A stretch of 64,000 nt of DNA from Actinomadura sp. HBU206391 (GTDB lineage: Bacteria > Actinomycetota > Actinomycetes > Streptosporangiales > Streptosporangiaceae): assembly GCF_014323665.1 (NCBI RefSeq), contig NZ_JABVEB010000006.1, positions 1-64,000 on the forward strand, in the 5' to 3' direction. The position numbers and the translations under genes are program-made. Below are positions 51,534-55,718 of the stretch, piece by piece (within the stretch, counting starts at the first letter, position 1; each line of letters opens with the position of its first letter). A model generated the notes under the pieces. That model searched no databases and was not told where the DNA came from. It saw nothing but the letters and a program-made list of their open reading frames with translations.

Positions 51534-52019
51534 CTACGGGCGAGGGGGCGCAGCGGAGTCTCTGGCCAGCCGGCCCAACGTCAGATCCAGTATCTGGACG
51601 CGGCCGTCGATGGGTTGGACGCCGTCCCACCAGCAGATCGCGCTGATCTCGTCGTTCGGGACGAAGCCGTCGCCCGGCGTCGCCTCTGCGGTGTAGAGGG
51701 CCGCGTACTCGGGGCACCGCTCGGGCCCGAGTACGAATCGTGCGTAGCCGGCGAAGGTGAGGTCCGGGACGTCGATGCCGGCCTCCTCGCGCAACTCACG
51801 CCGGGCCGCCTGACGCGGTGTCTCTCCGGGATCGATCATTCCGCCCGGCAGCTCCCAGCGCTGGCGGAACCGATCGAAGACGATGAGCAGCCGGTCGCCA
51901 TGCCACAGTGCCACGAGCGCGGCCGGCAGCGGCGCGTCGTCGAAGCGGGTCTTCTCGGCGACGCGATGGAACGCCACCAGCGCGTTGCCCATGTCGTCGA
52001 CGGCGAGAGCATCGGTCAC
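51534..52019 (-). CDS. Nudix hydrolase
   Basis: The 161-residue protein has the complete Nudix box GGMIDPGETPRQAARRELREEAGI (Gx5Ex7REUxEExGU pattern) after RWELP. It hydrolyses a nucleoside diphosphate linked to another moiety; the substrate is not predictable. Its start (52019) is 90 bp from the start of the caspase-NTPase-kinase gene, divergently, so the two may share a control region. Whether they act together is unknown. Confidence 0.92.
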   Translation of the reverse strand: MTDALAVDDMGNALVAFHRVAEKTRFDDAPLPAALVALWHGDRLLIVFDRFRQRWELPGGMIDPGETPRQAARRELREEAGIDVPDLTFAGYARFVLGPERCPEYAALYTAEATPGDGFVPNDEISAICWWDGVQPIDGRVQILDLTLGRLARDSAAPPRP

Positions 52020-52109: not shown

Positions 52110-55100
52110 ATGACGCAGCGGCGCGCGTTGGCCATCGGGGTCACGGAGTTCGGTGATGCCGCCGAAAACGGAAGCGATCTTCTGCCGTTGCCTTTCGCCG
52201 CCCGGCTGGCACGGGAGCTGGCGAGTTCTCTCGGCGCGCTCGGGTACGAATGCACGATTCGTGATGACGTGCCGTTTTCCACCCGGGCGCTCGGCGACGC
52301 GGTGCTGTCCCGGCTCCGCGAGGCGGATGCGGACAGTGTCGTCATCGTGCATGTGATCAGCCATGGAGATATCGAGCAGCGCACGGGAGCGCTCTGGGTC
52401 GCGGGGTCGGACGGCGAGCCCGGTGACGGTGCCACGGAGATCGAGGGCTGGCTCAGAGCGGTGGAGCGTGGCCCGGACGGGCCGATGGTGCTGTTTCTGC
52501 TGGATCTGTGCCGATCGGGTACGGCGGCCAGATTGCCCTGGCACATCGCTCTCGCCGATGGGCGGGCTCGCGCCTGGGTGCTCGCCGCCTGCCAGAGCGA
52601 CGAGGGCGCCTTCGACGGTCGTTTCTCACAGGCCGTGATCAACGTACTCGACCGCATCAGGCGGGAAGAGCTCGATATCGATCCGGCCCTGCCGAATGTG
52701 CCGTATCCGGCGGTGGCCCGCGCGGTCAGAGAGGAGGTCAATCTCCTCGCGGCAAAGGCCGATGGGTCCCGCCAGGAGGTGACCGCGACACTCATCGATT
52801 CCAGTGCAGACCTGACAAAGCTCGCATTCTTTCCAAATCCCGCGCACGACCCTTCGGATTCGCGGAGGCGGTTCCGCGCACGGCTCGACGCCGGCCTGTT
52901 GCCCTTTCTCGATGATCTCGACGAGGGCCTTGATGCCCGTCATTTCATCGAGCGCGCCACCGGATCGAGTCCCTTCAACCGGACACCGGGCTTTTCGCGG
53001 ATGTCGGGCTGTTTCACCGGCCGCCGCAAGGAGCTGCGGAGACTTTCCTGGCTGCTCAGCGGAGAGTTCCCCGAGGTCGGGCCCGCTCCGGCGCTGGGCG
53101 TGGTCACCGGGAGCCCGGGGGCGGGCAAGTCCGCACTGCTCGGGGTGCTCGTCTGCTCGTCCCATCCGAGCCTGCGGGAGACGACGCACCAGGTCTGGGA
53201 TCACGTGCGCCGCGCCCTCTACACGGTGGACGAGAGGTTCGCGGCGGTGCACGCTCGCGGGCGCCGGCTCGACGAGATCGTCGCCTCCATCGCCCGCCAG
53301 CTCGGCCTGGGCGAACTCGACTTTCCCGACGACCTCGTCGACGCGATCCGCGACCTGCCGCCGCCGGCCATCGTGCTGGACGCCCTCGACGAGGCCGAGA
53401 ACGGCCCGTTGATCATGGAAGAGCTCGTCCTTCCGCTGGCGAGGGCGCAGCGAGACGACGGCTCACCGCTCGTGCGGCTGGTCGTGGGCGTGCGAAAGTA
53501 CGGCGACTACGCCCCGCTCCGCGACTTCGCGGCAGGCCACGGTCTGCTGGCCGACCTCGACGACCAGCCTCGTGAGGTGCTCGAGGACGATCTTGAGGAG
53601 TACGTCACCGAGCTGCTCAGCGCCAGCGACGTCTACAAGCAGCGCGAAACCGTACGCAGGAACTTCGCCCGGGAGGTGGCGGGGGTGCTCGCCGCGCCTC
53701 CGGCGGAGGGGGTCCGCAATCGATGGGGTGAGTTCCTGGTCGCCGGCCTGTACGCACGGCATGTGGTCGCGACCACCTTCGACCGGCCGATCCGCAAGGC
53801 CCGCGAGGCCAGGGACCTGGGCAGGCGAGTGCCGCGCAGCCTCCCGGAGGTGCTCGCCCTCGACCTCGACGCCACCACGTCGTCGCTCCTGCGGCCCGCC
53901 TTGCTGGCGCTGGCGCGCACGTATGGCGACGGGATGCCGCTCTCGGTGCTGCGCAGGGTGTGCGGCGCCTACCTCACCGGAATCTCCGAACCGACCACCG
54001 GCCAACTGCGCAACGCGCTCGACCTCGGACGTTTCTATCTCCGGCAGGTCACCGACACCGACGGGACGACGCTCTACCGGCTGTTCCACCAAGGTCTGGC
54101 CGATCATCTGCTGGGCCGCGGGCGGAACTCCTCGATGCGCATCCAGGAGGCCTTCCGCACGTCGGTGTTCCTCGATCTGCTGGTCGCACCGCTCGGAGCC
54201 GGGCCTGCCCGGGACTGGGACGTGGCGGAGCCGTACGTGATCAGGCATGTGCTGCAGCACGCCGCCGATGCCGGACGGCTCGACGAGTTCGCCCCGGGCC
54301 GCCCGTGGACCCCGTCGGACACGACCGGCGGGATGCGAGTGGAAGAACCGATGAGCGGCGGATCCATGAGGTACGGCCCACCGGGCCTCCGCCAGCGTCA
54401 GCGAGAGATGTCCGCCGAACGCGATGAGCGGCCCCGTGACCCTGATCGCGACCAGACCGACCCGCGCTTCCAGATCCCGCCGTCTCCGCCGTCTCCGCCT
54501 GCCGGTTTCGGCGTCGCAGAGCCTCGGGTGAGTGACCCTGATCGCGACCAGACCGATCCGCGCTTCGAGATCCCGCCGTCCCCGTACGTTCCCGAGCCGC
54601 GAGCCGGAGACCCCGAGGCGCTCTCGCCCGCACCCCTGGGCGTGGACCGCTGGCGGGGGGAGGCCTCCATTCTCGGCCGGCCCGGTTATCTGGAGGAGAT
54701 CTATGCCAGAGAGGTGTGGCAGGCCGCCTCCGATCTCGTTCTCAACGGTCGGTGGCGGCTGGTCGCACTGCGCCAGAACATCGACCGGGCTGGGACGAGC
54801 ACTCTGTGGGACGCCGTTCAGGTGGCCGGCGAGACGCCCGTCGTGGTGAAGCTCGTTCCCACGGGCAGCCTGGGTTCGGCGACCAGGACCGGCGTGCTGC
54901 GCCGGAGGGCGCTGCGCAACGACATGCGGATGAACACGCGCAGCAGGCGGATCCGCGAGATCGTCGACTCCGGCGAAGACCAGGGATTCGGCTATCTGGT
55001 GATGCCACAGTACGGTCCCGGCAGCCTCAGCGGCCACCTGGCCTCTCCCGAGGCGGGCCGTCGTCTGGGCTGGTGCCTGGAGATCGCCGACCAGGTGCTC

Positions 55101-55718
55101 GAAGGGCTCGAGGCGGCGCACGCGGACGGATTCGTCCACCTCGACGTCAAACCGGCCAACGTCGTGCTGGACGGCGACGCGGCACGGATCATCGACTGGG
55201 GGCTCTCGGTGCGCTGGCGGAACACAGACCCCGGGCGCGAACCGATGACGGGCGGCACCCCCTTCTTCGCCAGCCCTGAGCAGATCGCCCAGAAACCCGG
55301 GTGGTGCACGCCTCTGGCGGACCTCTACGGTGCCGGCGCCCTCCTGTACTGGCTCATCACCGCCGAGGCGCCTCTCGCACGGGAGCTCGGCCGGTCTGCG
55401 AGCCCGTTCGGTGTCGTCTCGTTCCTCGACCTCGGCGGCCGGCCCGAGCGTGTCGACCGGCTCGTCCCGGGAGTCCCCGAGGTGGTCGCAGACCTGGTCG
55501 ACCGCTGGCTGGAGAGATCGCCCGCCGACCGCCTGCCGCCCGGCGCGCCCCCCGAGGCGGCGATGACCGCCGCACGGCGTGCTCTCGCCGCCCTCCGACG
55601 CAGCCGGCGCGTCCGGAAGGCGGCCCAGGTGGAAGCGCCCGTAGCGTCGCGCGAGCGCGGCATGGATCATCGGACGCCCTCCGTTGACGGCCCCACCCGC
55701 GACTTCGAGCCGGGATGA
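52110..55718 (+). CDS. Caspase-like / STAND NTPase / protein-kinase-like fusion protein
   Basis: From ATG 52110 (52092 also possible) the protein has 1202 residues. Domain 1 (about 1-240) is a C14 caspase-like fold: VIVHVISHG with His 85 and LFLLDLCRSG with Cys 134. Domain 2 (about 295-700) is a STAND/NACHT-type NTPase: CFTGRRKELRRL, Walker A GSPGAGKS (334-341), Walker B IVLDALDE (421-428), then helical winged-helix-like sequence. A Pro/Asp-rich linker (about 740-850) contains DPDRDQTDPRF twice. Domain 3 (about 875-1150) is a kinase: VVVKLV (Lys 914), FVHLDVKPANVVL (Asp 1012, Asn 1017), IIDWGLS (Asp 1029), GGTPFFASPEQ. No membrane helix. Confidence 0.9.
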   Translation: MTQRRALAIGVTEFGDAAENGSDLLPLPFAARLARELASSLGALGYECTIRDDVPFSTRALGDAVLSRLREADADSVVIVHVISHGDIEQRTGALWVAGSDGEPGDGATEIEGWLRAVERGPDGPMVLFLLDLCRSGTAARLPWHIALADGRARAWVLAACQSDEGAFDGRFSQAVINVLDRIRREELDIDPALPNVPYPAVARAVREEVNLLAAKADGSRQEVTATLIDSSADLTKLAFFPNPAHDPSDSRRRFRARLDAGLLPFLDDLDEGLDARHFIERATGSSPFNRTPGFSRMSGCFTGRRKELRRLSWLLSGEFPEVGPAPALGVVTGSPGAGKSALLGVLVCSSHPSLRETTHQVWDHVRRALYTVDERFAAVHARGRRLDEIVASIARQLGLGELDFPDDLVDAIRDLPPPAIVLDALDEAENGPLIMEELVLPLARAQRDDGSPLVRLVVGVRKYGDYAPLRDFAAGHGLLADLDDQPREVLEDDLEEYVTELLSASDVYKQRETVRRNFAREVAGVLAAPPAEGVRNRWGEFLVAGLYARHVVATTFDRPIRKAREARDLGRRVPRSLPEVLALDLDATTSSLLRPALLALARTYGDGMPLSVLRRVCGAYLTGISEPTTGQLRNALDLGRFYLRQVTDTDGTTLYRLFHQGLADHLLGRGRNSSMRIQEAFRTSVFLDLLVAPLGAGPARDWDVAEPYVIRHVLQHAADAGRLDEFAPGRPWTPSDTTGGMRVEEPMSGGSMRYGPPGLRQRQREMSAERDERPRDPDRDQTDPRFQIPPSPPSPPAGFGVAEPRVSDPDRDQTDPRFEIPPSPYVPEPRAGDPEALSPAPLGVDRWRGEASILGRPGYLEEIYAREVWQAASDLVLNGRWRLVALRQNIDRAGTSTLWDAVQVAGETPVVVKLVPTGSLGSATRTGVLRRRALRNDMRMNTRSRRIREIVDSGEDQGFGYLVMPQYGPGSLSGHLASPEAGRRLGWCLEIADQVLEGLEAAHADGFVHLDVKPANVVLDGDAARIIDWGLSVRWRNTDPGREPMTGGTPFFASPEQIAQKPGWCTPLADLYGAGALLYWLITAEAPLARELGRSASPFGVVSFLDLGGRPERVDRLVPGVPEVVADLVDRWLERSPADRLPPGAPPEAAMTAARRALAALRRSRRVRKAAQVEAPVASRERGMDHRTPSVDGPTRDFEPG

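Follow-up and report, generated by a model that had tools for sequence, protein, structure and literature searches.

The gene under study lies on the forward strand of a 64,000-nucleotide stretch of Actinomadura sp. HBU206391 (contig NZ_JABVEB010000006.1), which was analyzed as a whole and is called the window here. It occupies positions 52110 to 55718 and encodes one chain of 1202 residues carrying a caspase-fold domain, a STAND nucleoside triphosphatase (NTPase), a linker and a Ser/Thr-kinase domain, in this order and all on the same strand (+). The translation is uninterrupted from the ATG at 52110 to the stop at 55718. As the open frame extends upstream to 51351, a start at that position was considered and rejected: the start was set at ATG 52110 because the homologues begin there and because a NUDIX gene on the minus strand (51534-52019) runs antisense to the upstream part. 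A first-pass annotation, made from the sequence alone, had described three domains fused in one protein, and we found the same three-part architecture in Actinomadura craniellae (contig NZ_QLYX01000008.1), which stands for a second genus, in a full-length homologue 64% identical from end to end. Since the fusion recurs intact in a second genus, it is not due to chance or misassembly, and neither a single-genome artefact nor a local joining of separate genes was retained as an explanation. The architecture is well supported, and the query protein is a genuine, uncommon variant within a family that nearly always ends in a WD40 propeller.

The caspase-fold protease domain covers residues 1-250 (52110-52859), with the active-site residues His85, Asp132 and Cys134 encoded at 52362-52364, 52503-52505 and 52509-52511. 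The His85/Cys134 pair had been placed exactly at first reading. When residues 1-262 were aligned with those of 18 relatives (19 sequences), H85, G86, D132 and C134 were invariant. The Pfam model Peptidase_C14 matched 12 of these 19 sequences, and in the whole-protein Pfam scan of the query the caspase fell below threshold (Peptidase_C14, E-value 7e-4). The AlphaFold model of the caspase segment had a predicted local distance difference test score (pLDDT) of 87.9 and matched the MALT1 paracaspase with a Z-score of 20.6 over 202 residues, followed by caspase-8 (Z 20.1) and caspase-7 (Z 19.7). The caspase fold expected for residues 1-240 is present in this model, and we regard it as well supported; fold and His/Cys dyad both agree with the metacaspases/paracaspases (peptidase C14, clan CD). 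An Asp in the DxC motif is typical of MALT1 and metacaspases, whereas QAC is typical of Asp-specific caspases. From the motif, we take Asp132, two residues before the Cys, to be the counterpart of the S1 Asp in MALT1 and in metacaspases; because this DxC Asp is present instead of QAC, the query caspase should cleave after Arg or Lys.

The STAND NTPase, together with a winged-helix/helical region, covers residues 263-735 (52896-54314). Its Walker A (residues 334-341, 53109-53132) and Walker B (residues 421-428, 53370-53393) were located precisely in the first-pass annotation, Lys340 included, and their key residues T333, G334, P336, G337, G339, K340 and S341, and D424, D427 and E428, were invariant in the 19 sequences. 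Pfam matched the query to the P-loop ATPase families AAA_16 (E-value 1.8e-5) and NPHP3_N. The AlphaFold model of residues 263-735, built with the same relatives in the alignment, reached a pLDDT of 87.6 and has an NB-ARC/NACHT-like fold. It matched the NB-ARC of tomato NRC1 (Z 15.6, 306 residues), NRC2 (Z 15.1), the bacterial STAND-TPR protein 6mfv (Z 14.3) and Apaf-1 (Z 14.1), and these matches span 300-344 aligned residues, so that the fold extends past the P-loop domain. NOD2, NLRC4 and CED-4 were also matched by Foldseek at lower rank. ORC/Cdc6 AAA+ proteins were among the scoring structures too, which is expected of P-loop relatives.

The Ser/Thr-kinase domain covers residues 871-1160 (54720-55589), with Lys914 at 54849-54851, Asp1012 at 55143-55145 and Asp1029 at 55194-55196. 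Pfam Pkinase matched it with an E-value of 1.4e-20, the nearest solved structures in the PDB were Ser/Thr kinases of the PknA/PknE/StkP type, and the domain is 64% identical in A. craniellae. The catalytic core had been called complete, a description that goes a little too far: the ATP-binding Lys914, the catalytic Asp1012, Asn1017 and the Mg-binding Asp1029 are kept in both species, but the glycine loop is degenerate, HLD stands for HRD and DWG for DFG, and the alpha-C Glu is replaced, by Asp938 or Asn937 depending on whether a DUF4407-kinase relative or the stand-alone relatives are aligned. With such departures, and with no clear alpha-C Glu, the kinase may be catalytically weak or dead and act in protein recognition, as a binding module or decoy, with the mechanism otherwise as proposed below. 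In vWA conflict systems, the catalytic residues of most kinase domains are disrupted (Kaur et al. 2020, PMC7159879); on the other side, the four core residues are retained in both species and the alpha-C Glu of one relative lines up with Asp938, and we consider a dead kinase unlikely. Matches of the PADLOC models PD-T4-6, MAD6 and MkoA were confined to the kinase domain and were set aside as general kinase similarity, not system membership.

Outside the caspase-STAND fusion, the nearest relatives of the kinase are stand-alone proteins of about 420 residues, 41-45% identical, and DUF4407 membrane proteins that carry the same subfamily C-terminally. Two genomes of another family encode such DUF4407 fusions (L121:3994-7122 and L122:5410-8268), with a Pro-rich linker before the kinase. 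The kinase looks like a module plugged into several proteins. A third caspase-STAND fusion with this kinase subfamily was not found in 395 genomes of the class, where the only long proteins were DUF4407-kinases.

To place the fusion in its family, we searched with residues 1-767, since a full-length query was drowned by unrelated kinases and returned zero relatives beyond its own genome. Among about 250 genomes of the taxonomic family, long matches were observed in about a dozen, and at a loose cutoff matches occurred in 30 of 251, full-length ones being far fewer; two other sampled genomes of the query's genus gave no match in this search. A scan of genome contigs found only two close relatives. 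The search provided a first set of 18 loci, of which 13 have a long C-terminal extension and four end after STAND; the remaining locus encodes the kinase form of A. craniellae. Beta-propeller/WD40 models matched the extension in 12 of the 13 fused relatives (the exception is L044). Among the forms ending after STAND, L051 and L054 are followed by a separate WD40 gene, and a corresponding WD40 gene is present at L056, a near-identical locus. At L051:2823-8145, caspase-STAND, WD40 and hydrolase are three consecutive separate genes, an unfused form of the fused system. The Pfam scan of the query gave no WD40 match, and its kinase occupies the C-terminal position, where relatives carry sensor repeats, as the first-pass annotation had stated. 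In a tree built from the caspase-STAND part, the kinase forms of the two species group together as sisters (support 1.000) within the WD40 forms; because of this nesting, the WD40-to-kinase swap is, by this tree, a single event. The query genome also encodes a WD40 paralogue, which shares 49% identity with the query across residues 4-752. By domain, query and A. craniellae are 63% identical in the caspase, 74% in STAND and 64% in the kinase, and since conservation is much lower in the linker, selection appears to maintain each of the three domains.

A second gene accompanies the family. Its product, a predicted serine hydrolase, is about 280 residues long and resembles PGAP1/Abhydrolase_6, though with weak Pfam scores; it has an AHSLG motif of the GHSLG type, an N-terminal HG and conserved Asp and His. 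The hydrolase gene adjoins the caspase-STAND gene at 12 of the 18 loci described above, at six of seven class-wide loci and at nine of nine plasmid loci, and a tenth, near-identical plasmid carries it too. The two genes frequently overlap by 4 bp (L009, L045, L056 and the plasmids); apparent hydrolase fusions at L054, L056 and L099 were rejected, as frame checks resolved them into separate, adjacent or overlapping genes. Within the family set, every genome with a full-length caspase-STAND gene had a hydrolase match (12/12), against 123 of 251 overall. As a control, four genomes (L113-L116, e.g. L113:6511-7518) have a related hydrolase at a conserved place in the chromosome with no caspase nearby; because such caspase-free loci exist, the caspase linkage is a trait of one hydrolase branch and not of the whole family. 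That paralogue adjoins a small gene and a HAD-like gene. The pairing of caspase-STAND with a PGAP1-like hydrolase is new here; this conserved partner, which the first-pass annotation had no means of seeing, alters the output to be expected of the system.

The pair is also mobile. On three Streptomyces plasmids (L123, L130 and L132; NZ_CP109383.1, NZ_CP109329.1 and NZ_CP108278.1), caspase-STAND-WD40 and the hydrolase, annotated there as 'serine peptidase', form a two-gene cassette flanked by a Tn3-family transposase and a tyrosine recombinase (integrase). In the A. craniellae kinase form, the hydrolase gene lies 36 bp away and is convergent. The sole hydrolase match in the query genome adjoins the WD40 paralogue. 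As genomes with several caspase-STAND paralogues often hold a single linked hydrolase, sharing of the hydrolase in trans among paralogues is plausible from gene content. Directly after the hydrolase beside the WD40 paralogue, the query genome encodes a TPR-repeat protein (L009:14496-16226), a possible third component.

We propose, with a probability of about one in two, that the query is a protease switch resembling nucleotide-binding leucine-rich repeat receptors (NLRs), gated by its kinase, whose caspase activates the hydrolase in defence by altruistic death. At rest, judging from its fold, the STAND module would keep the protein closed. The kinase module, standing in the place of the WD40 sensor, would flip the switch on meeting a target or a change in phosphorylation; the kinase is favoured as input over output because it occupies the family's sensor slot. 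ATP-driven oligomerisation would then gather the N-terminal caspase domains and activate them by proximity, following the logic of the apoptosome and initiator caspases, as the fold and the invariant dyad suggest. The activated caspase, judging from its sequence, would cut after Arg or Lys. Its most likely client would be the PGAP1-like serine hydrolase, here supplied in trans from beside the WD40 paralogue, and the active hydrolase may damage membrane lipids or arrest growth. Altruistic death in defence is the most likely purpose. That the kinase is as conserved between the two species as the caspase (64% against 63%), and the linker is not, was counted in favour of this switch, as were the MALT1-like and NLR-like folds with their invariant residues, the single swap at the propeller slot, the linkage and overlap with the hydrolase gene, the plasmid cassettes, and the published VMAP and canu parallels described below.

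Several observations weigh against it. No hydrolase gene was found at the query locus in the window; the gene neighbours there are ordinary (NUDIX, hemerythrin and a Na/Ca exchanger) and show no recognisable defence island; no PADLOC model matched the caspase-STAND part or the hydrolase; and phage records gave zero relatives at the cutoff used. In addition, we infer the succession of kinase, caspase and hydrolase, and the kinase could equally be the output.

This last option bears on the linker, a Pro/Asp/Arg-rich segment of low conservation (54315-54689) with two PDRDQTDP motifs (54441-54464 and 54537-54560). PDRDxTDP motifs are common to both species. In A. craniellae the pre-kinase linker is a 60-bp tandem repeat in six copies (L041:4228-4588, PDRDWTDPNPWR type), of which the query linker has just two diverged copies. 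If the kinase were a second output, the caspase would cut the Arg-containing linker, and the freed kinase would phosphorylate host proteins and stop growth. The motifs, two in the query and in repeated copies in A. craniellae, are predicted accessible Arg sites, and such an output would explain the missing hydrolase gene at the window locus; Ser/Thr kinases are also described among the effectors of actinobacterial conflict systems (PMC7159879). However, the C-terminal slot elsewhere in the family holds a WD40 propeller, normally a sensor, and the A. craniellae kinase form retains its adjacent hydrolase. Overall, release of the kinase as an effector seems improbable to us.

The purpose of the kinase-gated switch can also be questioned. 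Instead of an immune function, the protein may serve in developmental or stress signalling, for example by controlling a programmed lysis of hyphae that precedes sporulation. The multicellularity of actinomycetes and their wealth of Ser/Thr kinases would suit such a role, as would the ordinary chromosomal neighbours and the lack of a PADLOC model on the caspase-STAND part. It is poorly compatible with the patchy distribution of the family (30/251 genomes at the loose cutoff, with far fewer full-length and absence from the two other sampled genomes of the genus), and the plasmid location of relatives, next to genes for transposase and integrase, is a poor fit to a core role. We hold a developmental function to be doubtful. 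The antiphage or cell-death role suggested in the first-pass annotation is plausible in view of the NLR-like switch, the MALT1-like protease and the mobile two-gene cassettes, but it stands by analogy, at a locus that is in no recognisable defence island and whose caspase-STAND part matches no PADLOC model.

Known systems share parts of this arrangement. Metacaspase-NACHT-WD40 proteins have been listed since 2012 (Asplund-Samuelsson et al., PMC3501461); they combine an N-terminal caspase fold and a STAND/NACHT ATPase on one chain, and the relatives of the query are exactly such proteins. The query differs in ending in a kinase and not in WD40, and the part of that paper available to us does not mention a linked alpha/beta-hydrolase gene. 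In the VMAP conflict systems, caspase domains are always neighboured by an alpha/beta-hydrolase gene (Kaur et al. 2020, PMC7159879); the switch there is MoxR-vWA, whereas here it is a STAND ATPase, and the examined loci showed neither a MoxR nor a vWA partner, although no search was aimed at them. A 2025 paper on canu (PMC12799240) showed that a MALT1-like caspase and a partner nuclease form a pair that acts in antiphage defence. Canu likewise has a MALT1-like caspase and a separately encoded enzyme that is likely activated by it, but its caspase chain has neither STAND nor kinase and its partner is a nuclease of the metallo-beta-lactamase (MBL) type, in contrast to the alpha/beta-hydrolase here. 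The Pfam scan of the query gave no immunoglobulin (Ig) match and the scanned neighbours included no MBL-type nuclease, although no dedicated search for these traits was made. As in Apaf-1/CED-4 and plant NLRs, the STAND fold would be expected to control a death output (NRC1 Z 15.6, Apaf-1 Z 14.1); unlike them, the query has its protease fused in cis, and a kinase takes the place of the sensor. The literature searched contained no account of a caspase-STAND-kinase chain or a caspase-STAND/hydrolase cassette, which is only weak evidence of absence.

A bolder version, which we regard as quite unlikely, is a phosphorylation-gated bacterial NLR: the kinase would sense a change driven by an invader, the STAND oligomer would activate an Arg-specific caspase, and the caspase would both activate the lipase-like hydrolase in trans and cut the PDRDxTDP linker, so that the kinase is released or reset. 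If true, one chain would combine three activities that are found on separate proteins in eukaryotic death pathways. For the family as a whole, the plasmid-mobile pair of caspase-STAND and alpha/beta-hydrolase is likely an effector system activated by proteolysis, a parallel to the pairs of trypsin or caspase with a nuclease that were recently shown to act in antiviral immunity. The clean replacement of a propeller by a kinase, with the caspase-STAND chassis conserved, raises the testable question of whether its C-terminal sensor slot is interchangeable.

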